From a virus: a DNA stretch of 64,000 bases. A program made the position numbers and the translations under genes. Position 1 is the first letter of the stretch. Every line of letters starts with the position of its first letter. The notes under the pieces are model-generated. The model saw only the letters and a list, made by a program, of their open reading frames with translations. It did not search any database and was not told the DNA's origin. Positions 18,005-56,307 of the stretch are shown here, in pieces. The DNA is taken from positions 94,518-158,517 of the IMG/VR virus record IMGVR_UViG_3300025154_000049. One strand, 5' to 3'.

Positions 18005-18361
18005 TTAAGATACCAACTCCTTCATCATAAAGTAACTATTGTAGTGAGACTCGTTTTCAAACTCTAATAAGTCCATGTGAGGTTTTTCATAATAAACATG
18101 AGCGTACCCAAAATGCTTAGTTAGATAAGAAACCAGATGATTTACTTTTAAGCAATGCCATCTACCCTTATCGTCTTTAAGATAGATACCGCTCTTATCT
18201 CTTTTTATAGCCAATTCTTTAAAGTCGTCATTTTTAAATAATGTGGTAGGGAAAGCTATAGCATAGAATTTACCTTCCTTGAATAGCTCACTAGGAATTT
18301 TATAATTCTTAGTTATGTTAGATAGTTTAATCTTTTTGACTTTATTAGTAATTTTACTCAT
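18005..18361 (-). CDS. MxEL-tagged protein
   Basis: 118 aa from the ATG overlapping the upstream stop (ATGA). Basic N-terminal half (KITNKVKKIKLSNITKNYKI), tail YFMMKELVS. Confidence 0.75.
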   Translation of the reverse strand: MSKITNKVKKIKLSNITKNYKIPSELFKEGKFYAIAFPTTLFKNDDFKELAIKRDKSGIYLKDDKGRWHCLKVNHLVSYLTKHFGYAHVYYEKPHMDLLEFENESHYNSYFMMKELVS

Positions 18362-18594
18362 TCCGTTAGTTCCCGTATATGTTTCCACTTAGCCATACTT
18401 TCGTCATCTATCGTAAGACAATCATAGGGACAATGTTCTACTGCCTTTATTATCTTTAGTTCATTACCTTCTATGTTCTGCTCCTTTATCTCTATCAAGA
18501 AGAAAGAACGAGGGCTATCTATTAGAAAAACTTCAGGACAATAATACTCACAATGCTTACATAGTTGGCATTCATCTCCTATGTATATTATCAT
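18358..18594 (-). CDS. 4Fe-4S ferredoxin with MxEL tag
   Basis: 78 aa. CQLCKHCEYYCP and a later CPYDC give the C-x2-C-x2-4-C-P ... C-P arrangement of a single-cluster ferredoxin, with the conserved AVEHCP helix. The last residues HIRELTE are the tag. An electron carrier with the same terminal peptide as its neighbours is strong evidence that the tag is portable. Confidence 0.8.
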   Translation of the reverse strand: MIIYIGDECQLCKHCEYYCPEVFLIDSPRSFFLIEIKEQNIEGNELKIIKAVEHCPYDCLTIDDESMAKWKHIRELTE

Positions 18595-25447: not shown

Positions 25448-25746
25448 CCGATTAGTTCATTCATAGCTAATAAACTGTCTATCTCTTCTTCTGTTATTTC
25501 ATACATATCGTCGTTATCTATTAAACTGTTTATAAAACATTTATACAAGTCTTTACTAACTTCATTGTTGTATATTTCAATACCACATCTTTTACCTTTG
25601 ACATAATATCCAACACCGACCCATTCGTCTGTTTTGGGATTAAAGACTATAGCCACTTTACTATTCGTGGCAGGTTCATAATAGAATTTACTGTTAAACT
25701 CGTCCCTTTTAGGAATATGATTAAGTTTTATCATTATCTTCTCCAA
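25444..25746 (-). CDS. MxEL-tagged small protein
   Basis: 100 aa ending LLAMNELIG, preceded by EITEEEIDS. Confidence 0.75.
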   Translation of the reverse strand: MEKIMIKLNHIPKRDEFNSKFYYEPATNSKVAIVFNPKTDEWVGVGYYVKGKRCGIEIYNNEVSKDLYKCFINSLIDNDDMYEITEEEIDSLLAMNELIG

Positions 25747-26086
25747 ATAAATATCTTATTGGAATTTTAACAGCATCCGCTATACCTTCACGTATTTTAT
25801 TTAATTGACTGAGTTCAAAAAAGTTTTCTTCTTTAGGTTTGGATACTAATTCTACCATTACAAGAACAGCTTCTATTTCCTCTTCGGTTAGTTCAAAAGT
25901 AGTCAATGGATTAGCTTGTAAAAAATTTACAAACTCGTAATCCATATAAGATGACCTACACCATTCACCGTCTTTAAGAATACATATTGTATTAGAAGTA
26001 CGAAAGTTAGCCCCACATCTTCTATAGAAGACGGGACTATCTTCATCATTGTTATATACACTTTTATAATATTTATATTCTTCCAT
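25721..26086 (-). CDS. Tagged-family protein with a C-terminal extension
   Basis: 121 aa. A full family unit (EEYKYYKSVYNNDEDSPVFY ... ELTEEEIEAVLVMVELVS) is followed by 38 more residues ending in FGEDNDKT. The motif is internal, about 110 nt before the stop. Confidence 0.75.
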   Translation of the reverse strand: MEEYKYYKSVYNNDEDSPVFYRRCGANFRTSNTICILKDGEWCRSSYMDYEFVNFLQANPLTTFELTEEEIEAVLVMVELVSKPKEENFFELSQLNKIREGIADAVKIPIRYLFGEDNDKT

Positions 26087-30396: not shown

Positions 30397-30668
30397 TAAT
30401 GGGAGGAGTTACCCTCCCCGACTTCTAGGCTACGAGAGCCATTTTACGTCCGAAGTCTAAAGACACTGTGTTGTTTCCGTTTGTTGTTTTTTGCTATTTT
30501 TAAAGAGAATGCCCTCTTACTTGCGAGTTTATCCCTACCTACCACGTCTAAACCTGGCGACCCCATGGTGGAATCGGTGGGAATCGAACCCACGTCCGCA
30601 ACAGACATCAATAAACCTTCTACAAGTTTAGTCCTATTTGTAAGAGTTAGACTTCTCATTTAAGTTTT
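30397..30668 (-). ncRNA. ssrA: tmRNA, circularly permuted two-piece form
   Basis: The 3' half comes first: GGACGTGGG-TTCGATT-CCCAC then CGATTCC-ACCA ending at 30566. One base later (30564) the 5' half begins GGGGTCGCCAGGTTTAGAC. The two form a 7-bp acceptor GGGGTCG/CGATTCC with G-U pairs, including G3-U70 for alanine. The halves also match as P2 (ATAAAC/GTTTAT) and as a 9-bp TTAGACTTC/GAAGTCTAA helix. A tag frame follows GCA at about 30495. A terminator lies directly upstream, which rules out an ordinary one-piece gene. The outer limits are approximate. Confidence 0.85.
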
Positions 30669-42096: not shown

Positions 42097-42114
42097 TGTA
42101 ACTAAACTGTTACT
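42097..42114 (-). promoter_or_regulatory. Operator-like palindrome
   Basis: GTAAC-AGTTTA-GTTAC perfect inverted repeat on the minus strand; it also covers the last codons of the HNH gene. Confidence 0.55.
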
Positions 42115-42431
42115 AATTCTTTTCTTCTGAGTCGAGAAACAATTCCTAAAAGTCCTTGATGTAGTAAAACATGTTCGTCATGAGACATTATTTGTAAGTT
42201 AGAAATATGATTATTAGACTTATTTAAATCTCTATGATGTACCTCATATCCATCGGGAATTTCAATATCCATTGCTAAGAAGAGTAATCTGTGTTCTAGG
42301 ATTAAGAAACTTCCTTCGTCTCCTTTGTACCTAACTAACACATACCCGTTATGAGTAATTTTTCTTTCTCCTTCTCTAAATACTTTCTTAACTAGCTCTT
42401 TGTCTCTAGTAAGTCTTTTAATACTTGCCAT
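42102..42431 (-). CDS. HNH endonuclease
   Basis: 109 aa. YEVHHRDLNKSNNHISNLQI, then MSHDEHVLLHQ, gives the HNH motif (H-H ... N ... N-L ... H-x-x-H). The N-terminal part (YVLVRYKGDE, HRLLFLAM) is typical of phage HNH proteins. May be a homing or nicking enzyme; no intron is visible. Confidence 0.85.
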   Translation of the reverse strand: MASIKRLTRDKELVKKVFREGERKITHNGYVLVRYKGDEGSFLILEHRLLFLAMDIEIPDGYEVHHRDLNKSNNHISNLQIMSHDEHVLLHQGLLGIVSRLRRKELVTV

Positions 42432-44150: not shown

Positions 44151-44447
44151 TCATTTTGTCAACTCATCTATAAATTTATCTACCACATCTCTTTTTCTTT
44201 GTTTCCATACGGCTATCATATATCTATACATAAACCAAGGAAATATTACAAATACTATTAAAAGAATGTATCTTTCATTCTCATAAATATCAAAGACATC
44301 TCTAAATACTAGATAGTCCCAAAGCTCATTACAAAAAGAAGGAGGAGAGTATATTCTTATAAAAATTAAAAATGCTATGAAATTAAAAGTACAGTATAAT
44401 ACAAAGACAAGTAGCATTATAAGTAGTATAGCAAATACTTCTTTCAT
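44151..44447 (-). CDS. Membrane protein with MxEL-like end
   Basis: 98 aa. Hydrophobic helices near 3-30 and 60-80; ends DKFIDELTK (Ile for Met). Last gene of the block with no start nearby downstream. Confidence 0.7.
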   Translation of the reverse strand: MKEVFAILLIMLLVFVLYCTFNFIAFLIFIRIYSPPSFCNELWDYLVFRDVFDIYENERYILLIVFVIFPWFMYRYMIAVWKQRKRDVVDKFIDELTK

Positions 44448-44707
44448 TAGTCAGTAAGCTCTTTCATTAAATCAGCAGTTATAAACTTAATATTAAATTG
44501 TTCTAAATCTTTAGAACAAGTCATCTTCCCATCTATAATTGCTTTCTGTATCTTACGTGTATATATTTCAAGATGCACTGGACATAAATCTATGTGTTCC
44601 CAATCGGAAGTATATCTATCATAGTCCAAAGATTCTCCATGATAAAGTTGTATCTTTCTAACATATTCTATTTCATTACATTTATCACATCGTCTTATAC
44701 TAACCAT
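44447..44707 (-). CDS. MxEL-tagged zinc-type protein
   Basis: 86 aa. RRCDKCNEI and a later LCPVH form a possible C-x2-C ... C-x2-H site; ends DLMKELTD. Confidence 0.75.
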   Translation of the reverse strand: MVSIRRCDKCNEIEYVRKIQLYHGESLDYDRYTSDWEHIDLCPVHLEIYTRKIQKAIIDGKMTCSKDLEQFNIKFITADLMKELTD

Positions 44708-44708
44708 A

Positions 44709-44972
44709 TCAATCTCCTGTTAATTCTTTAAACACATCTAATTCTTGTTTCTTAATACAATAATCTATCAGAACCATATAGTCGTCTATCTCTTCAATAA
44801 ACTTATAAGTAAAGACTATTAAACTTCCACAGTCGGAACAAGTATGAGTAGTACTTAATTTATCTAGGGTTCCTTTAACATAATAGGGTTGTCTACAAAT
44901 AGGACAGGTACTAATAAATCCATAAGACCTCATACTCAAAAAGAACTTTGTAATGATACCGATTATGTTCAT
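44709..44972 (-). CDS. Zinc-ribbon protein with MxEL-like end
   Basis: 87 aa from the ATG overlapping the upstream stop. CPICRQPYY ... CSDCG is a rubredoxin-like zinc ribbon. Ends DVFKELTGD, a variant tag. Confidence 0.75.
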   Translation of the reverse strand: MNIIGIITKFFLSMRSYGFISTCPICRQPYYVKGTLDKLSTTHTCSDCGSLIVFTYKFIEEIDDYMVLIDYCIKKQELDVFKELTGD

Positions 44973-45301
44973 GCTACTAATTCCCACATTGTTCTTACAG
45001 TATCTATATCTTCTGTTATCCTAGTTACTATAAGATGAGGATAAACTTTATTATCAAATATTGTAGGCTTATCTAATTCAAAATCATGAGAGACTCTTCC
45101 ATCTATCCACAATCCTTTTTCCATATCCCTAACTAAGACTTCGAGCACGTTAGGAACTCCTCTGCCTAGCATACCCTTTGTTTGTAGGTATCCAGAAGAA
45201 GTTTTAATTATGAAAAAGTAAACAGGGTCAGTCTCCGTGTAACTATCAAAAGCACAAGGGTTCTTCACCATCCATACATCTTCTATTTTAATTACTGTCA
45301 T
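44969..45301 (-). CDS. MxEL-tagged protein
   Basis: 110 aa ending RTMWELVA. YFFIIKTSSGYLQTKGMLG in the middle. Confidence 0.75.
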   Translation of the reverse strand: MTVIKIEDVWMVKNPCAFDSYTETDPVYFFIIKTSSGYLQTKGMLGRGVPNVLEVLVRDMEKGLWIDGRVSHDFELDKPTIFDNKVYPHLIVTRITEDIDTVRTMWELVA

Positions 45302-45558
45302 ACTACAAGTTCTCTCATTACTCTGTACGCTTCTATTTTCTCTATGTATTCTTGTACCTTGTCTTTATCTATTTCAAAGATACCTTGAGATATCATATAG
45401 TGAGTTTGAGCTTTGATACCTTCCATACTCATAGGTTGGAAACAATCCCATTTACCATGATAGTTTAGTTCATAGGTCTTATCATTATAAGACTTAAACA
45501 CTCTAACTTTTATTATAGAATCGGGGAAGCATAATTCATAGTATCTAATCTTTGTCAA
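45298..45558 (-). CDS. MxEL-tagged small protein
   Basis: 86 aa: IRYYELCFPDSIIKVRVFKS ... RVMRELVV. Confidence 0.8.
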   Translation of the reverse strand: MTKIRYYELCFPDSIIKVRVFKSYNDKTYELNYHGKWDCFQPMSMEGIKAQTHYMISQGIFEIDKDKVQEYIEKIEAYRVMRELVV

Positions 45559-45965
45559 GTTACAAGCTCCCTCATATATTTAAAAGTCTTGAAGTCTTCT
45601 TGGTTTAAATCAGTAAAGGCATAAGTAACAGAACCACCGTTGTAATAATCTATACCGAATACATGTTTCACTGGTAAATCATCATCGTAGTATACAGTCT
45701 GCCAAATCTGGTCTCTATTATTTGTCTGACCATAGTTTAATCTTATAGCTTCTAAGTTTGGCTTGGGGTTAGTTATATGCACTATAACATCCCCTTGTAT
45801 ATAATTTACCATTCCGTATCCTAAAGCACCATTGACAGGAACCAACTGATTGAATCCGTCATCCATAAGATAATTTTTAGTCAGTACTCCTTCATGGCTG
45901 AAAATTACACTCAGGGTATTTTCTCTTATGTTTCCTAGGGTCTCTATGCAGAAATCACTTATCAT
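45555..45965 (-). CDS. MxEL-tagged protein
   Basis: 136 aa ending KYMRELVT. Beta-rich, unlike the Tyr-rich start type. Confidence 0.75.
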   Translation of the reverse strand: MISDFCIETLGNIRENTLSVIFSHEGVLTKNYLMDDGFNQLVPVNGALGYGMVNYIQGDVIVHITNPKPNLEAIRLNYGQTNNRDQIWQTVYYDDDLPVKHVFGIDYYNGGSVTYAFTDLNQEDFKTFKYMRELVT

Positions 45966-46483
45966 GCTACTAACTCCTGCATCATTAGAAACTTATCAAC
46001 ATTGTCTACTATCTCAATTACTTTAAGTAAGTCTCTGGCTTTTATACAGGATTCGTCCCCTTCTACAGATAGTATCATCCTACCATTTTTCATAACCTTC
46101 TTAACTTCTAGTTCAGTTTTGTTATCGAAGTTACCGTCAGTGTATATACGCAAGGACACTATAAAGATATCTCCGTTCCAGATATTATCACACATCCAGA
46201 TACTGGGACGAAAGCTAGTGTTAGCCTCAATAAGATTCTCTATCTCGTGAATATGTTTATATCTCTTATTAGTATTTGCTTTCCCAAAATCTTTATAGGT
46301 ATCTAAAAGCTTACTGTGTAGTTGTCTTAACTTCTTGTCATACCAAGGATGTAAGTTTCCTTTCCTATCTGTTACGTAGGTAGGTAACTCTTCTTCTTTC
46401 TCTTCAGTTACACTTTCTCCTATAAATAGATTCTTAATATATTCTATTAAAGAAAAGTGTTCATTACAACAAGGACATTTCAA
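45962..46483 (-). CDS. MxEL-tagged protein with N-terminal CxxC
   Basis: 173 aa, TTG start inside the upstream stop (TTGA). KCPCCNEHFSLIEYI at the N-terminus may bind metal; acidic linker; ends LMMQELVA. Confidence 0.75.
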   Translation of the reverse strand: MKCPCCNEHFSLIEYIKNLFIGESVTEEKEEELPTYVTDRKGNLHPWYDKKLRQLHSKLLDTYKDFGKANTNKRYKHIHEIENLIEANTSFRPSIWMCDNIWNGDIFIVSLRIYTDGNFDNKTELEVKKVMKNGRMILSVEGDESCIKARDLLKVIEIVDNVDKFLMMQELVA

Positions 46484-46785
46484 CTTACAAGTTCCCTCAT
46501 CATTACATATTTATCTATCTCTGCTAAGTATTGTTCTTTAGTTCTGTACTCTTTTATTATATCGTTATAGAATTTCTCATGATTAGTTGTATAAGAAGTT
46601 TGTAACCTATTACCAACTACAGTAAGAATCTTTCCTCTCTGTAAGTCATGAGAGTTACATACGAAAGAATAAGCGAAGGCTCCTTGGATAAATCCTTCAG
46701 TTTCCCAATACATAAAGGAACACTCGGGGGAATTATAATCAGTGTTAAGACACTTTGATATTTTAAAGTACCTTGACTTATTCAT
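46480..46785 (-). CDS. MxEL-tagged small protein
   Basis: 101 aa: SRYFKISKCLNTDYN ... YRTKEQYLAEIDKYVMMREL. The Arg-Glu codons (AGGGAA) form the next gene's ribosome site. Confidence 0.8.
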   Translation of the reverse strand: MNKSRYFKISKCLNTDYNSPECSFMYWETEGFIQGAFAYSFVCNSHDLQRGKILTVVGNRLQTSYTTNHEKFYNDIIKEYRTKEQYLAEIDKYVMMRELVS

Positions 46786-47042
46786 AGCGTTAATTCTTTC
46801 ATAGTTAATATTTTATCTATTTCTTCTGGGTCAAATATTATAGAGAGTACTTGGAAACCTCCATCATTTTTATCTCCAGAACATAGAACTCTTTTTAAAG
46901 CTTCTGTTAAATCCTCTTCATAACATTCATAGTCAAATCCATCATTCAGATAAGTACATCTTAATTGATTACCTTTCTGATAGTAGTAGTGTTCATTAAT
47001 CTTTCCACTCCTTCTTGTCTTTACTATGATTCTTTCTATCAT
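46782..47042 (-). CDS. MxEL-tagged small protein
   Basis: 86 aa ending LTMKELTL after FDPEEIDKI. Confidence 0.75.
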   Translation of the reverse strand: MIERIIVKTRRSGKINEHYYYQKGNQLRCTYLNDGFDYECYEEDLTEALKRVLCSGDKNDGGFQVLSIIFDPEEIDKILTMKELTL

Positions 47043-47341
47043 GATACTAGCTCTTTCATCATAACATACTTTTCTATTTCTTGCAAGTACTCTTCTTCAG
47101 AATTATATTCTTCTAAGTAACTATGAACTGTAGTAGTTGTTCCGTAGGCTCCTCGTTCCACTAACTGTACTGCATCTATTGTTTCACATCTTTTAGCTAC
47201 TGTATGTGTACATTTACAATGAACTTGTCTTTCAAAATCATATACATAAAGTATATCCCCTATTATATAAATCATAGATATACCACCAGAACAATGCTTA
47301 TCTCTCCAAGACATTAGAGGTAACTTGTAATACTGAATCAT
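47039..47341 (-). CDS. MxEL-tagged small protein
   Basis: 100 aa: IQYYKLPLMSWRDKHCSGG ... SEEEYLQEIEKYVMMKELVS. C-terminal half closely related to 46480-46785. Confidence 0.8.
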   Translation of the reverse strand: MIQYYKLPLMSWRDKHCSGGISMIYIIGDILYVYDFERQVHCKCTHTVAKRCETIDAVQLVERGAYGTTTTVHSYLEEYNSEEEYLQEIEKYVMMKELVS

Positions 47342-47682
47342 TCTACAAGCTCCTTTAGCGTTCTATACTTAGTAAGACATCTCTGTAATCCTTTCTTGGT
47401 TCTGAATTCATATATGTTCCACTGTCGTACTCCTTCACTATAGGATAGACTGTCGGCTATGTCATCTACCCAATCCCACAACCAATCATGGCTTGTGTAA
47501 TCACATCCTTCTAGTATTAAGTCTTCCCCCAGATTATACCTTATATAATCTCCATATCCATCCTCATCTCGTTCTTGTACTTCGTAAGCAAAGAACCTAT
47601 CATCCACTTCTGGTATTAAGGGAACAGCAAGATAGAATCTATCGGGTCTTATGTTACATACAAGTTTCTCTATCTGTTTCAT
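47338..47682 (-). CDS. MxEL-tagged protein, EF subtype
   Basis: 114 aa. IYEFRTKKGLQRCLTKYRTL then KELVE. The last codons read AAAGGAG, a perfect ribosome site 8 nt before the next ATG. Confidence 0.8.
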   Translation of the reverse strand: MKQIEKLVCNIRPDRFYLAVPLIPEVDDRFFAYEVQERDEDGYGDYIRYNLGEDLILEGCDYTSHDWLWDWVDDIADSLSYSEGVRQWNIYEFRTKKGLQRCLTKYRTLKELVE

Positions 47683-47945
47683 GATACGAGTTCCTGCATC
47701 ATTAAGTAATTATCAACCTCACAGTTTTCTATCTCGTAGAAAATATCTGGAAACAACATAACATCTTTATCTATAACAAGGTCATGGAATATTAACAGGT
47801 TCTTGTGTACCTCTGCTGTAGAAGATACTCCCCATCTTATAAACTTTAATACTGTATATTTAGGGTTACTGAGGCTAGTACCTAAAGGATAATATAGATA
47901 GTGCTTCCCTGTTATACACTTATAGGTTCTCTTTAGTTGATTCAT
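47679..47945 (-). CDS. MxEL-tagged small protein
   Basis: 88 aa ending LMMQELVS after EIENCEVDNY. Confidence 0.75.
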   Translation of the reverse strand: MNQLKRTYKCITGKHYLYYPLGTSLSNPKYTVLKFIRWGVSSTAEVHKNLLIFHDLVIDKDVMLFPDIFYEIENCEVDNYLMMQELVS

Positions 47946-48238
47946 TCTACTAATTCCTCTATCATTAGTTCATTTTGAAACCGACCCCAAGTTATTTCTT
48001 CTATAGGATTACCCTTGCTTTTAATCCAGTTGAAGAATTCTAACTGAGTATTGTGTCTTGTTGTATACCATGATTTACTAACCTTGTCCCAAACTTCTAG
48101 TATGTACTTGTCTGGTTCTTTATAAGTAAGAATGTTATGTTTTCTATAATAAACATAAACAGTCTTATCTTCTGATTTTATAGACGGGTCGGTATAATTC
48201 CAGTTACGGAATTCTACTTTGAAATAAATATCTTTCAT
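47942..48238 (-). CDS. MxEL-tagged small protein
   Basis: 98 aa ending ELMIEELVE. KVEFRNWNYTDPSIKSED near the start. Confidence 0.75.
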   Translation of the reverse strand: MKDIYFKVEFRNWNYTDPSIKSEDKTVYVYYRKHNILTYKEPDKYILEVWDKVSKSWYTTRHNTQLEFFNWIKSKGNPIEEITWGRFQNELMIEELVE

Positions 48239-48531
48239 TCAATAAGCTCCACCAAGGATGCTCTAAGACTTTCCAAATCAGATAGGCTATTGGACTCTGC
48301 TATTATAGTATGACCTCTGCTTTTTATGAACTCTGGAAAGAGTAAAATATAGTTCTTCTGTGCTATAGTCCAGTTGGCTATATCGTTATATCTGAAGTAG
48401 AAGTAAACGTCGTCATTAAATTCATTATTAACATCAGGAACTACTTTGTAGATAAAGTACAAAGGCTTAGTAGAGTGAAGTACACTCTTAACTAAACAAT
48501 AGAAAGATGGTCTTAAAGGTTTTGCTCTCAT
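48235..48531 (-). CDS. MxEL-tagged small protein
   Basis: 98 aa ending RASLVELIE (Leu for Met). Tyr/Phe-rich middle. Confidence 0.75.
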   Translation of the reverse strand: MRAKPLRPSFYCLVKSVLHSTKPLYFIYKVVPDVNNEFNDDVYFYFRYNDIANWTIAQKNYILLFPEFIKSRGHTIIAESNSLSDLESLRASLVELIE

Positions 48532-48764
48532 GATATTAATTCCTTCATTGCAAGGGAAGCTTCAAATTCTTCTGTAGGAATTTGTTCTATCTTATATTGG
48601 AAAGCCTCAGCTACTCTTATCATTTCAGCCTCATCTATGAAAGAAACAGTAGACCAACAATCTTTATAGTTACCATCATAATAGCTAATAAGATTATTGT
48701 CTCTTACTCTATAGATGTCATCCGTATTGTTATCTGTATTTGTAACTCTAAAATATTTAGTCAT
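48528..48764 (-). CDS. MxEL-tagged small protein
   Basis: 78 aa: TKYFRVTNTDNNTDDIYRVR ... IPTEEFEASLAMKELIS. Clear paralogue of the next gene. Confidence 0.8.
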   Translation of the reverse strand: MTKYFRVTNTDNNTDDIYRVRDNNLISYYDGNYKDCWSTVSFIDEAEMIRVAEAFQYKIEQIPTEEFEASLAMKELIS

Positions 48765-49000
48765 AAAATAAGTTCTTCCATTATTAAGGTTGCTTCAAAT
48801 TCATCTGAGGTAAGTTCGGTTAAGATATAACTTTCTGGATATCTACTAGCACAGTCTATACAAGAGTCTGCGTTAAGTATGGAGGTTCTATCCCACCAGC
48901 CTCTTTTCTTATTATATATCTGTGCTTTATCATTGTCAACACATTTATAATAATCTGTTACATTTGTATACTTCTTATAAACTTTAAAGTATCTTATCAC
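48761..49000 (-). CDS. MxEL-tagged small protein
   Basis: 79 aa: IRYFKVYKKYTNVTDYYKCV ... LTSDEFEATLIMEELIL. Tandem paralogue of 48528-48764. Confidence 0.8.
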   Translation of the reverse strand: MIRYFKVYKKYTNVTDYYKCVDNDKAQIYNKKRGWWDRTSILNADSCIDCASRYPESYILTELTSDEFEATLIMEELIL

Positions 49001-49314
49001 TTAGTTAATTCCTCCATGAATAAGAACTTATCTAATTCCTCTTCGGAGTCTAATTCCCAGAGAGACATATCGTGAGACAGATAATTCCATGTAACAAACC
49101 ACTTATGTAAATCCATCCGAAGAGTAGAATCTGTAGCTTCAGAAGTATGCCATATCTTTCTATTCCTAGTACTGGTAAGCTTCTTATAATTGAAGTTACC
49201 TATAGGAATAAACACATGTAAGTTCTCAGTAATAAAAGTTTCTCCAAGATGTACTACGTATATCTTATCATGTTCTATTTTAAAAGTATGGTGTATGTTG
49301 CCTAAGTTTCTCAT
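48997..49314 (-). CDS. MxEL-tagged protein, LDSEEEL subtype
   Basis: 105 aa. WELDSEEELDKFLFMEELTK closes the protein; starts with KIYVVHLGETF. Confidence 0.75.
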   Translation of the reverse strand: MRNLGNIHHTFKIEHDKIYVVHLGETFITENLHVFIPIGNFNYKKLTSTRNRKIWHTSEATDSTLRMDLHKWFVTWNYLSHDMSLWELDSEEELDKFLFMEELTK

Positions 49315-49565
49315 GCCACTAACTCACTCATCATTCTTACAGACCTTCTGTAGTCGTTGACAGTTTCAAAGTCTACTTCTTTATAGGAATCTCCTATAAA
49401 TTGAATAAGAGATTCTTCACTCTTGAAATGTAAATCATTAACTGCATTGTTTGTTTTCCACATGTGGTTTTCAAAATAGTTATATTCAGCAAACCACGTA
49501 TTAATTTGTTTGTAGCAGTAAGTAGTTATGTAAGATTTATTATCTGGATTAATATAATATCTCAA
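49311..49565 (-). CDS. MxEL-tagged small protein
   Basis: 84 aa: RYYINPDNKSYITTYCYK ... RMMSELVA. Confidence 0.8.
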   Translation of the reverse strand: MRYYINPDNKSYITTYCYKQINTWFAEYNYFENHMWKTNNAVNDLHFKSEESLIQFIGDSYKEVDFETVNDYRRSVRMMSELVA

Positions 49566-49918
49566 GACACTAACTCCTCTATCATTCTCTCAGAGAGATA
49601 TTCTTTTTCGTCTAAGAGATATATTTTTCTGAACATATATTCATAATAAGACCTGTTAGATGTTCTTAGGTCAGCATTTATTAGATTACATATATCAGCA
49701 TGGAAGTTGATATTGTATAGTAGTTCTAGGAACTGGTCTATCTCTTTCGCACTAGAAGTTCTAAAGTCTATGTATACTTTCTTCTGTCTGTTGAAAGTAC
49801 TTGTTATGACCCAGTATCTTTTTATACTCCAAAAGAACCATCTTATTATAAAATGATTATGCTTTTTAAATACTGAAAAGATATTAAAGATACTTGACCT
49901 GTTACCTACTTCTATCAT
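49562..49918 (-). CDS. MxEL-tagged protein
   Basis: 118 aa, basic (IRWFFWSIKRYWVITSTFNR), ending RMIEELVS. Confidence 0.75.
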   Translation of the reverse strand: MIEVGNRSSIFNIFSVFKKHNHFIIRWFFWSIKRYWVITSTFNRQKKVYIDFRTSSAKEIDQFLELLYNINFHADICNLINADLRTSNRSYYEYMFRKIYLLDEKEYLSERMIEELVS

Positions 49919-50208
49919 GACACTAATTCTTTCATTACTGAGTATTTACTTATTTCTTTTAGATACTCTTCCTCTGTTTCATATATTTCCAGTATTGGGA
50001 AATTAAAGGTTCTATTAGTTCTCGACAACCAAACATGTAGACAGTCTCCTTTTATGTAGGAACAAGTCTGTCTTATCTTAGAACATCTATGCTCTCCTTT
50101 TACAAAGTTATAACCACGGTCTTGGTCTCCGTCCAGAGTTATAAAAGAAACTCCCGCAGAAGTAAAATGTTTATTAGGGAGTCCTTGCATTTTTAAATAC
50201 ATCTTCAT
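49915..50208 (-). CDS. MxEL-tagged small protein
   Basis: 97 aa. YETEEEYLKEISKYSVMKEL then VS. Confidence 0.75.
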   Translation of the reverse strand: MKMYLKMQGLPNKHFTSAGVSFITLDGDQDRGYNFVKGEHRCSKIRQTCSYIKGDCLHVWLSRTNRTFNFPILEIYETEEEYLKEISKYSVMKELVS

Positions 50209-50450
50209 CCGACAAGTTCCTGCATAAATAAAAAGTTATCAAGTTCTTCTTTAGTTACTTCTTTTATACCTAAGAATCTTTTATCATGTTGAGCACCTCC
50301 CAGATACCAATCCGTCGTTACCCATTCTTTGGATTTAACCATGAGTTCTTTCCATCTCCAGTATCTCTTATGAACTCCTATTTTAAAGTATCTATATCTA
50401 GGGGTACTTCTATACCCATCAAACAATGTTAGATAATAACGGTACTTCAT
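50205..50450 (-). CDS. MxEL-tagged small protein
   Basis: 81 aa from the ATG inside the upstream stop (ATGA); the longer frame is a shadow. KYRYYLTLFDGYRSTPRYRY ... FMQELVG, basic and Tyr-rich. Confidence 0.75.
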   Translation of the reverse strand: MKYRYYLTLFDGYRSTPRYRYFKIGVHKRYWRWKELMVKSKEWVTTDWYLGGAQHDKRFLGIKEVTKEELDNFLFMQELVG

Positions 50451-50638
50451 TCGACAAGTTCCTGCATAGTTATATATCTTAAGGCTTTCTCTCCTGAAAT
50501 TATATGACCAGCCACTCCGCCTACGGACAAGTTCCACTCTCCATTATACCAGTACTCTAATCTTTTTTCAATATAATCGTACCGATATATTAAGGGATTG
50601 TAAAATTCTTCTGTAGATATATGATACTGATATCTCAT
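50447..50638 (-). CDS. MxEL-tagged small protein
   Basis: 63 aa from the overlapping ATGA start: RYQYHISTEEFYNPLIYRYD ... ITMQELVE. Shortest full member. Confidence 0.75.
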   Translation of the reverse strand: MRYQYHISTEEFYNPLIYRYDYIEKRLEYWYNGEWNLSVGGVAGHIISGEKALRYITMQELVE

Positions 50639-50880
50639 GCTATTAATTCCTTCATACAAAGATAAGCATCTATTTCTTCTGGGTCAGTAATTAAAGTACA
50701 ACTTCTACCATAATCTTTAAAATAAGATAGGTCTTCCAATTTAGCACTAGGATTATAGTAGGAGAAGATAAGCTTCTTACCTCCTATATAATAGTATTCT
50801 ATCTTATTATCCCAACCATAAAAGAATAAAGTAGATTTGGTATCTGTTGAATTAATAACTAAAAGTCTACTTAGAGTCAT
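50635..50880 (-). CDS. MxEL-tagged small protein
   Basis: 81 aa ending LCMKELIA after ITDPEEIDAY. Confidence 0.75.
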   Translation of the reverse strand: MTLSRLLVINSTDTKSTLFFYGWDNKIEYYYIGGKKLIFSYYNPSAKLEDLSYFKDYGRSCTLITDPEEIDAYLCMKELIA

Positions 50881-51203
50881 ACTGTTAGTTCCTTCATGAA
50901 TTCTAAGGTGCCATAGTCTTCTGCTTCTGCCAGTACTTCGTAACCGTACTCAAGAAAATATTGTTCTGGTTTAAGTCCTAACCTTCTAGGTAACGTAAGC
51001 CAACCATAATCTTTCCTATGAATGTCATAGTAATAATTATAAGTGCCGTCTCCGTTTAGTCCAAGAGTTAATCTACATATAGATATATCTAAGTTATTTT
51101 TAATATACTTATAACTGTCCTTGACAAGATAGAATCTCTTACCAGATTCTTCATAAGCTTTTAGCTTTCCTTGTTCATCTTCTGCTATAAAAACTTTCTT
51201 CAT
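50877..51203 (-). CDS. MxEL-tagged protein
   Basis: 108 aa ending LEFMKELTV. Lys-rich start KKVFIAEDEQGKLKAYEESG. Confidence 0.75.
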   Translation of the reverse strand: MKKVFIAEDEQGKLKAYEESGKRFYLVKDSYKYIKNNLDISICRLTLGLNGDGTYNYYYDIHRKDYGWLTLPRRLGLKPEQYFLEYGYEVLAEAEDYGTLEFMKELTV

Positions 51204-51213
51204 ATCAACCTTC

Positions 51214-51462
51214 TTAAGATATTAATTCATTTAAGTATACTAACTTCTGATATTCTTCCATAGACTCTAGCTTATAAATATCATACGTGTCAAACAGAAC
51301 GCTTACTTTTTCTGGAGTGTCGGATAAGTGTGCAAATTGCCAAACAGTGTACTTATCTAAAAACCTATGCTGTTCTTTCCTTTTATGAAACACGTAGAAG
51401 ATAGGACTGTCCGTACAAGTTACAGCTTCAGATAATGATTCCATGTTATCTAATTGTATCAT
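51214..51462 (-). CDS. MxEL-tagged small protein
   Basis: 82 aa from the overlapping start (MIQLDNMESLSEA). IYKLESMEEYQKLVYL then NELIS. Confidence 0.75.
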   Translation of the reverse strand: MIQLDNMESLSEAVTCTDSPIFYVFHKRKEQHRFLDKYTVWQFAHLSDTPEKVSVLFDTYDIYKLESMEEYQKLVYLNELIS

Positions 51463-51707
51463 CCGATGAGTTCCTTCATACACTTAAGCTTTGTCTTCTC
51501 TTCCTCAGACTCTATCTCGTAGATATCATATATGTCAAAGAATCCAGAGTAGCCTTGAAGGAATGTACCCATGCCATCTGTCAGTCTGTAAGAAGTCCAT
51601 TTCATTATTCTCTTCTTATTAGTTATGCTTATCCAATTGTCTTTCTTCCTGACAGTGTAGTAGTGTTTCTTATATTTGATATCAGCCTTATTAAATATTT
51701 GTATCAT
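51459..51707 (-). CDS. MxEL-tagged small protein
   Basis: 82 aa. IYEIESEEEKTKLKCMKELI end; basic middle. Confidence 0.75.
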   Translation of the reverse strand: MIQIFNKADIKYKKHYYTVRKKDNWISITNKKRIMKWTSYRLTDGMGTFLQGYSGFFDIYDIYEIESEEEKTKLKCMKELIG

Positions 51708-52033
51708 GTTGTAAGTTCCTTTACATACTTGAGAGTATTAAGAAATCTTTTAACTGCTCTAAGGGATTTAAACTCGTAGATAGAATTCCAATTCTCTATC
51801 GTAAGATGATATCTGTCGTAAATCTGACCAGACCAGTTCCTGAAAGTATCGAAGCTTTCCTTACAATAGTATGTATAGATGTTTAAATCTAAAGTAATTT
51901 CATTACAAATAAAAGTACGTTCTCCAACCTTATGATACAACTCTCCAGCAGAAGAATATCCCTCTGGGTTATTTCTTAGTACCAGATATAACCTGTCCTC
52001 TTTAATATTAATCTTAGGAATAAACTCTTTCAC
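51704..52033 (-). CDS. MxEL-tagged protein, EFKS subtype
   Basis: 109 aa. IYEFKSLRAVKRFLNTLKYV then KELTT (Val for Met). Confidence 0.75.
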   Translation of the reverse strand: MKEFIPKINIKEDRLYLVLRNNPEGYSSAGELYHKVGERTFICNEITLDLNIYTYYCKESFDTFRNWSGQIYDRYHLTIENWNSIYEFKSLRAVKRFLNTLKYVKELTT

Positions 52034-52338
52034 GATATTAACTCCAGCATACTGTCTAATGAATCTCTCACTTCATCAACTTCTTTCGTACTATCTATTT
52101 CGTATATAGAATAGTCTCCATGTCCATAGTTCTTTCCATGATTGAATAAATGTAACAGTTGACTATCGTTGAACTTATGACGATTGTTATTCACTGGTGT
52201 GTTAGCATGCCATACGAGATAATGTAAGAATGTTCTTATTACATTAGTAGGCTTATATCCTTTATAAGAACGATAAGTATACACATATACTTTATCTCTG
52301 TTCAGTTCTTTTATAGGTAATTCTAATAATCTTATCAT
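52030..52338 (-). CDS. MxEL-tagged protein
   Basis: 102 aa from the overlapping ATG (MIRLLELPIKELNRD). IYEIDSTKEVDEVRDSLDSM then LELIS. Confidence 0.75.
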   Translation of the reverse strand: MIRLLELPIKELNRDKVYVYTYRSYKGYKPTNVIRTFLHYLVWHANTPVNNNRHKFNDSQLLHLFNHGKNYGHGDYSIYEIDSTKEVDEVRDSLDSMLELIS

Positions 52339-52571
52339 GATACTAATTCTTTCATCATTATAATAGTATTTGCTTCCTCCTCTGTTATCTCTACCATAGT
52401 ATCCCTCCATATATTAATGCTACTAAGGCTCTCCACATTAGGGAAATGGGTTTCTCTCCACCTTACCTCCCCCTCTATTTTCTCACAAACTTCTACATTT
52501 CTGATTCCTCCCGAGTTCCATCTAAAGAATCCAAAAGGGAAAGTTATATTTGATTTAAAATATCTTACCAT
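52335..52571 (-). CDS. MxEL-tagged small protein
   Basis: 78 aa: VRYFKSNITFPFGFFRW ... EITEEEANTIIMMKELVS. Confidence 0.8.
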   Translation of the reverse strand: MVRYFKSNITFPFGFFRWNSGGIRNVEVCEKIEGEVRWRETHFPNVESLSSINIWRDTMVEITEEEANTIIMMKELVS

Positions 52572-52861
52572 GATACTAATTCTACCATAAACTCTTTTGT
52601 TTGTCTAGCCACAGTTTCTTTTTCTATTACATCAGCTATAGCACTCGTGATAGCTTTAGGAAGACTATCTCTATGACTCTGTTCCATTCTGGGACTGTAG
52701 TATAATCTATCCCAACTACGTACTTCATTGAACAAGTACTCCATAGTGTAAGTACCTTTTCTTCTATCGACAAGTCTTAAGTTGTGTACTCTCAGTTCGT
52801 TACCTTTATTAAATAGATAATACCTACTCGTCTCGGCTATAAGATTGTATTCGTTTGACAT
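52565..52861 (-). CDS. MxEL-tagged small protein
   Basis: 98 aa ending EFMVELVSW. Charged, helical C-terminal half. First tagged gene after 52871-53506. Confidence 0.75.
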   Translation of the reverse strand: MSNEYNLIAETSRYYLFNKGNELRVHNLRLVDRRKGTYTMEYLFNEVRSWDRLYYSPRMEQSHRDSLPKAITSAIADVIEKETVARQTKEFMVELVSW

Positions 52862-53591: not shown

Positions 53592-53831
53592 TTAGTTTAC
53601 AAGTTCTTGTATAGTAAGTATTCTAGTTATCTCATCTTCATCTGTTATTATTTTGAGACCCACAGGAAATTCATCTATTATATCTTCTAGGCTTAAACCC
53701 ATAGTATGTATAGGACATAAGTATTCTTTCTTGTCATTTAAATATCTATAATGAATATTACTCTCACCATAAAAGTATAAACGAGAAAGAGCAGGGTTAT
53801 AAGGAATATCTACTATAAGTCTTTCAAGCAT
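53592..53831 (-). CDS. MxEL-tagged small protein
   Basis: 79 aa ending LTIQELVN (Ile for Met). Last tagged gene before the promoter 53539. Confidence 0.75.
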   Translation of the reverse strand: MLERLIVDIPYNPALSRLYFYGESNIHYRYLNDKKEYLCPIHTMGLSLEDIIDEFPVGLKIITDEDEITRILTIQELVN

Positions 53832-55902: not shown

Positions 55903-56307
55903 TTAGTTTACAAGTTCTTCCATAACTTTAGATGCGTTCATTATACTATCGACTTCTGCTCTTCTACGAGAACAATCAAAACATCCTACGTAAGTTATTC
56001 TACAGTAGACTTTAACTATAGCTGTAACAACTCCGTCTATGTTTTCGTATGTTAGTATATTGCTTGTACTGGCTTGGTCGTATTCTATATTAACACAAGC
56101 ATAACCAGCACTGAAATCTTTAACGTGGTTTCTTAACTCTTCATTATATAAACTGGAATGATAGTAAACATTGGGTACTACTAAATCTCTGAAGGTAATT
56201 TCATTATCTGTCTTAGCAATACATTGTACTGAAGTTCCTCTTGATGGAATGCGTTCTCTCTTTTTTCTTGGGGTCATACTTTTACCAGAACATTTAAAAC
56301 CTATCAT
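55903..56307 (-). CDS. MxEL-tagged protein
   Basis: 134 aa. Basic N-terminus, beta-rich body with FDCSRRRAEVDSIM before KVMEELVN. Farthest upstream tagged gene in the window. Confidence 0.75.
   Translation of the reverse strand: MIGFKCSGKSMTPRKKRERIPSRGTSVQCIAKTDNEITFRDLVVPNVYYHSSLYNEELRNHVKDFSAGYACVNIEYDQASTSNILTYENIDGVVTAIVKVYCRITYVGCFDCSRRRAEVDSIMNASKVMEELVN

Follow-up and report, generated by a model that had tools for sequence, protein, structure and literature searches.

A conserved C-terminal tag on small proteins of a phage, with ribosome-binding sites probably fitted into its codons

The DNA analysed here, a stretch of 64,000 nucleotides (nt) called the window below, comprises positions 94,518-158,517 of the 158,517-base virus record IMGVR_UViG_3300025154_000049, from an uncultured phage. 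On its minus strand, at 44151-52861, lies a block of 30 consecutive genes whose products share a C-terminal peptide, the tag, of the form hydrophobic-x-E-L-[V/I/T]-x. Our analysis supports a reading in two layers that we consider likely: a helical tag maintained at the protein level, with the ribosome-binding site of the next gene tuned into it by codon choice. In the first layer, selection at the amino-acid level keeps a C-terminal helix of 13-15 residues on some 100 small proteins, most of them unrelated to one another. In the second, where the next start lies inside or at the stop codon, the x codon is biased to end in G, making x-E read GGAA or GGAG; this sequence would pair with the 16S ribosomal RNA (rRNA) 8 nt ahead of the next start, and such pairing would support termination-reinitiation along the block. 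The tag is no side effect of the ribosome-binding site; it is the site that has been accommodated in the tag. Comparisons were made with a sister phage, IMGVR_UViG_3300025030_000003 (G001, 190 kb), whose orthologous tagged proteins have a mean identity of 82% to those of the record.

An initial annotation of this DNA described a 30-gene block sharing the tag, and this was borne out: 30 of 30 minus-strand genes at 44151-52861 end in it (gene starts were assigned mechanically). Each stop was also said to overlap the next start by a few base pairs, which holds at most of the 29 junctions: 25 are 4-nt overlaps (ATGA/GTGA/TTGA), one is a 7-nt overlap (52565), and one is a 1-nt overlap (44447). The other two have no overlap, with 1 nt (44709) or 10 nt (51214) between the genes. 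The proposal that the x-E codons form a Shine-Dalgarno site upstream of the next start stands for 18 of the 25 four-nt overlaps, in which x ends in G and yields GGAA or GGAG 8 nt ahead of that start; it fails for 7, in which AAA, AGA, GAA, or AGT precedes GAR and the GGAR core is missing. The AAAGGAG that had been assigned to the start at 47682 is one gene off; it precedes the start at 47341, and the start at 47682 has CAGGAA.

44151-52861 (minus strand): block of 30 consecutive tagged genes, most with a 4-nt overlap (from the list of open reading frames and the tag table)
47350-47356 (minus strand): AAAGGAG, spelled by L-K-E of the gene 47338-47682 tag and lying 8 nt upstream of the ATG at 47341 (from the sequence)
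47691-47696 (minus strand): CAGGAA, spelled by Q-E of the gene 47679-47945 tag and lying 8 nt upstream of the ATG at 47682 (from the sequence)
46480-46524 (minus strand): full tag and stop, ending in EIDKYVMMRELVS, with an AGGGAA core and a 4-nt overlap with a TTG start
45555-45599 (minus strand): tag ending in FKTFKYMRELVT and stop, with an AGGGAG core and a 4-nt overlap with a TTG start
51214-51258 (minus strand): tag VYLNELIS and stop, x-E spelled AAT GAA; the next start is 10 nt off and has its own GAAGG-type site
44151-44195 (minus strand): tag FIDELTK and stop of the gene that closes the block; no start follows downstream, and x-E is spelled GAT GAG, with no ribosome site
52565-52861 (minus strand): gene with the tag one codon inside its C-terminus (MVELVSW and stop), having TGG where the sister phage has a TGA stop

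The tag extends far past the block. The record contains 99 tagged genes spanning record positions 64,937-153,615, and Met at -6 and Glu at -4, counted from the C-terminus, are found together 64 times (0.33 expected). Matches on the opposite strand are at chance level only, and hardly any of the structural genes in record positions 1-60,000 carry the tag. In full, it runs over 13-15 residues, approximately [S/T/D/N]-E-E-[E/D]-hydrophobic-x-x-[Y/L]-x-x-M-[K/R/E/Q]-E-L-[V/I/T]-x-stop. Among the 99 tags the sixth residue from the end is Met in 73, Leu in 15, and Ile in 8, whereas Leu is followed by Val, Ile, or Thr in 93. The final residue is free to vary (S, N, E, G, K, D), with S, N, E, and G dominating.

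Conservation between the two phages indicates that the tag is kept as amino acids. Homologue searches used queries from which the last 16 residues had been removed, an unbiased test of tag retention, and in each search direction the tag was present in 80 of 80 homologues; an 81st homologue lacking it in one direction is an artefact, its open reading frame being cut by the locus edge. The tag Glu and Leu are identical in 82 of 82 orthologue pairs, against 88% each in protein bodies (P = 8e-5, with genes taken as independent in this and all other P-values), a figure favoured by the choice of the 82 pairs as tagged in both phages. The codon for Leu is the same in 62% of pairs, not different from the 69% for body Leu. 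Since Glu and Leu are invariant while the Leu codon turns over as elsewhere, the constraint acts on the amino acid. A repeat or recombination seam at the DNA level was rejected as the origin of the tag: its Leu is spelled with six codons and its Glu with two, with ordinary synonymous turnover.

The codon at x, in turn, is biased in its spelling. Where K/R/E/Q precedes Glu, its codon has G as the last base in 33 of 50 overlapping tags (66%), compared with 66 of 449 such pairs in gene bodies (15%; P = 3.5e-14; body codons drawn from the window), and 12% of all codons preceding Glu inside genes are G-ending. The bias that the initial annotation proposed as a check, between tag K/R-E pairs and other K/R-E pairs, is therefore present. 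By overlap type, 56 tagged genes are at -4 and 10 at -1; a Shine-Dalgarno 4-mer core is found in 35 of the 56 tagged -4 pairs and in 14% of random windows. Where the x residue of an overlapping gene differs between the phages, the final G is kept in both for 7 of 14 pairs. With overlaps of 4 or 1 nt, a core above chance, and shifted synonymous codons, these junctions share sequence properties with Shine-Dalgarno sequences embedded in an upstream gene, and the sites probably act in translation. The proposal that tag codons double as a ribosome-binding site can thus be retained for about two-thirds of the overlapping genes, but not as the reason for the tag.

Two further codon preferences were seen. 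Within the bodies of minus-strand genes of the window, G-ending codons are avoided before Glu (3 of 42 Gln-Glu pairs are CAG-GAR, whereas CAG makes up 28% overall), a pattern consistent with avoidance of internal Shine-Dalgarno-like sequences. The Val, Thr, and Ile codons after the tag Leu favour a final A over T (Val is GTT in 2 of 43, against 36% in bodies), which perhaps keeps the spacer before the next start A-rich.

When the tags are aligned on their Glu, enrichment reaches about 12 residues back, with an N-cap-like S/T/D/N at -12, acidic residues from -11 to -9, and hydrophobic positions at -8, -5, -2 (M), and +1; judged from the sequence, this spacing is that of an amphipathic helix. 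Two tagged proteins bear on the structure of the bodies.

48528-48764 (minus strand): tagged protein predicted by AlphaFold2 to be a beta sheet with helices, the tag forming the C-terminal helix 64-77 (mean predicted local distance difference test score, pLDDT, 85.6; predicted template modelling score, pTM, 0.72)
18358-18594 (minus strand): 4Fe-4S ferredoxin-like small protein (Pfam Fer4_13, E = 1.3e-6, residues 7-61 of 78), with the tag SMAKWKHIRELTE after the end of the domain

A fold search with the confident model of 48528-48764 gave no PDB match at E <= 0.001; matches in BFVD were weak and to uncharacterised phage proteins. The model, in which the tag is an integral C-terminal helix, would fit an origin of the tagged proteins as diverged copies of one small beta-rich fold, with the tag as its best-kept last core helix. 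Some of the bodies do form true paralogue groups, several of them full-length and one with a shared aromatic pattern, as such descent would predict. Common ancestry is nevertheless unlikely, because the tag is also found on a ferredoxin, on Cys-rich proteins, on a protein (44151) with a hydrophobic stretch that is probably a membrane segment, and on proteins of 170-255 residues, and because an invariant polar Glu is not expected from core packing alone. With the tag removed, phmmer sorts the 99 proteins into about 90 groups, and iterating profiles from three seed families brings in only 21 of the 99. Homology outside the tag, as a single paralogous family would have, does not appear in these comparisons, and searches of all 99 tagged proteins with Pfam, PHROGs, NCBIfam, and PADLOC gave single scattered matches and no shared family.

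The strictly C-terminal position of the tag would also suit a degradation signal, either a C-terminal degron or an ssrA-like signal for an AAA+ protease that would limit early proteins in time. A permuted transfer-messenger RNA (tmRNA) is encoded at 30425-30627 on the minus strand (RF04321, 93.8 bits), beside 14 transfer RNA genes; its predicted tag peptide, GNNTVSLDFGRKMALVA, is shared unchanged by the sister phage, and its M-A-L-V-A ending bears a faint likeness to M-x-E-L-V-x. The resemblance of this ending to tags such as MMQELVA speaks for a degradation signal; as in ssrA tags, LVA is the ending of some of the phage tags. Known ssrA tails end in small non-polar residues, however, and the C-termini here are not of that type (LAA/LVA): just 5 of the 99 tags end in a single Ala, the last residue is free, the helical acidic part is foreign to ssrA, and the tag is encoded in each gene. 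We regard a role in degradation as distinctly improbable.

That the tag does not depend on gene overlap can be seen in the 21 of 99 tagged genes that have no close downstream start. Several further tags, together with one gene whose overlap differs between the phages, are as follows.

53592-53636 (minus strand): tag ILTIQELVN and stop, with no start within 80 nt; x-E is spelled CAA GAA
28899-28943 (minus strand): tag IITMTELIR and stop, followed by a separate GGAG; x-E is spelled ACA GAG
55903-55947 (minus strand): tag SKVMEELVN and stop, followed by a separate GGAGAG; x-E is spelled GAA GAA
9034-9288 (minus strand): Cys-rich, probably zinc-binding tagged protein without a Pfam match, uncoupled (AAA GAA)
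47338-47682 (minus strand): gene whose best sister-phage match stands at the block end with no downstream gene; LKELVE is replaced by LRELTD, in different codons

A final G at x is found in 5 of the 21 uncoupled tags and in 40 of 62 overlapping ones (P = 0.002). In some 10 orthologues an overlap arose or disappeared between the phages, and every one of them retains the tag; the sister-phage counterpart of the 44151 gene is overlapped by the next gene, although its tag (AAT GAG) has no GGAR. Because the tag is fixed in place relative to the stop, the distance from the GGA core to the start shifts with overlap type, from 9 nt in 4-nt overlaps to 12 nt in 1-nt overlaps; the free sites of the phage peak at 6-8 nt. 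The phage also has 16 4-nt overlaps that are untagged; untagged overlaps match tagged ones in predicted pairing (-5.65 against -5.6 kcal/mol) but build it from other codons.

These observations bear on two explanations in which the tag serves translation. A nascent-chain effect, with the terminal peptide slowing termination and promoting reinitiation at the overlapping start, would account for the position of the tag exactly at the stop in most genes and for overlapping genes being the majority, but we hold it to be very improbable, as the tag is kept on TAA-ending genes without a neighbour and is missing from those 16 untagged overlaps. Selection for Shine-Dalgarno sites at overlapping genes, with the tag as a mere by-product, is hardly credible: GGAR in most overlapping tags, the strong x codon bias, and the dominance of 4-nt overlaps would follow from it, yet a forced x-E would acquire its hydrophobic, Leu, and V/I/T flanks by chance in just 0.5% of genes, Leu stays the same residue while being spelled by six codons, and untagged overlaps manage without the tag. 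This origin was rejected on the uncoupled tagged genes and on the orthologues whose coupling state had changed. As the initial annotation anticipated, a ribosome site would not explain the Met, Leu, and Val, and Met, Leu, and Val/Ile/Thr are indeed conserved as amino acids; this conservation, the 21 uncoupled genes, and the survival of the tag through gain and loss of overlap together mean that the ribosome site is not the reason for the tag.

Under the two-layer reading, the tag helix is probably a docking or address signal, by which the proteins that carry it would be bound by one common partner. T4 gp43, gp55, and gp33 have acidic and hydrophobic C-terminal motifs that bind the sliding clamp, unrelated proteins thus docking on one hub; the phage tag is likewise acidic and hydrophobic and sits on unrelated phage proteins, but has far more carriers. 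DNA polymerase B had no match in either phage record, and a sliding-clamp family search matched nothing anywhere, controls included, and so is uninformative on the presence of a clamp gene. Microcompartment encapsulation peptides form an amphipathic helix. Bacterial microcompartment encapsulation peptides (PMC11157265, PMC7221423) and encapsulin cargo-loading peptides (PMC8346489) are short terminal peptides on otherwise unrelated proteins. The phage tag is similar: one short terminal helix, here predicted, on proteins that appear non-homologous. Unlike encapsulation peptides, it has about 100 carriers in one phage, an extreme C-terminal position, and an invariant E-L, and has no known shell or receptor.

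The ribosome-site part has closer precedents. Shine-Dalgarno sequences within the upstream gene at short or overlapping junctions are known (Palleja et al. 2009, PMC2784483, citing Eyre-Walker 1996), as is termination-reinitiation coupling at ATGA 4-nt overlaps (PMC6728339). The phage junctions resemble known embedded sites in their 4-nt overlaps, in a core lying in the last codons of the upstream gene, and in biased synonymous choice. They differ in that the same codons of the same peptide are used in dozens of genes, with the distance to the start set by the tag; the site falls in the same codons of many genes because the protein-level tag fixes the peptide.

An exact-pattern scan of IMG/VR found 66 stretches with the tag pattern; the sister phage was alone among them in having several tagged genes, and was also the sole source of matches for two further tagged proteins used as queries. 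One search of bacterial and archaeal genomes with a tagged protein found none. The tail sheath protein (in the record, outside the window) is like those of T4-like myoviruses, Rhizobium phages, and Vibrio phages; a distant relative whose sheath is 47% identical had no such tag in the 40 kb read. A megablast of 24 kb of the record against annotated phages was without a match, and a literature search for a common C-terminal motif among phage proteins found nothing relevant.

Several points weigh against the two-layer reading. The tag is known from only two closely related phages, so that the comparison is shallow and the orthologue pairs are evidence of little depth. No partner of the tag helix was identified, and its docking role is putative. 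Paralogy links some of the bodies, and sequence comparison may have missed a fold common to more of them; the model of the ferredoxin is of low confidence (pLDDT 39.8) and unusable, leaving its tag helix unproven. On the codon side, where the x residue is kept between the phages the x codon is kept in 52 of 56 tags, against 83% for K/R/E/Q in bodies, so that synonymous conservation appears to exceed background only marginally (P = 0.046). Restricted to K/R/E/Q, the final-G contrast between overlapping (33/50) and uncoupled tags (5/12) is not significant by itself, the uncoupled sample being small.

The ribosome-site part alone is known biology; the unusual part is a protein-level tag on about 100 largely unrelated phage proteins. 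We see an even chance that these small proteins, a large share of the accessory proteome, carry one address helix for a single receptor (a compartment, hub, or unfoldase), with translation signals fitted in. If the tag is an address, it would reveal a partner dealing with a large proportion of the accessory proteins together, and would open up otherwise featureless genes in a single step. Since a single genome allows tags that have a neighbour to be set against tags that have none, the block is also a clear natural example of two codes carried by shared codons.

Three other genes show features related to the tag. At 25721-26086 (minus strand), a tag-like stretch, EEIEAVLVMVELVS, lies some 40 residues short of the C-terminal end, as though a stop behind it had disappeared and the frame had run on. 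The gene at 42102-42431 (minus strand), judged by eye to be HNH-endonuclease-like, ends in RRKELVTV, a resemblance to the tag that is probably due to chance; its compared stretch is 100% identical to the sister phage, against a mean of 82% for its tagged neighbours. A tagged protein at L006:12154-12480 has an N-terminus (NNPYGFTAGQV...) resembling the start of the phage's tail-fibre-like proteins.

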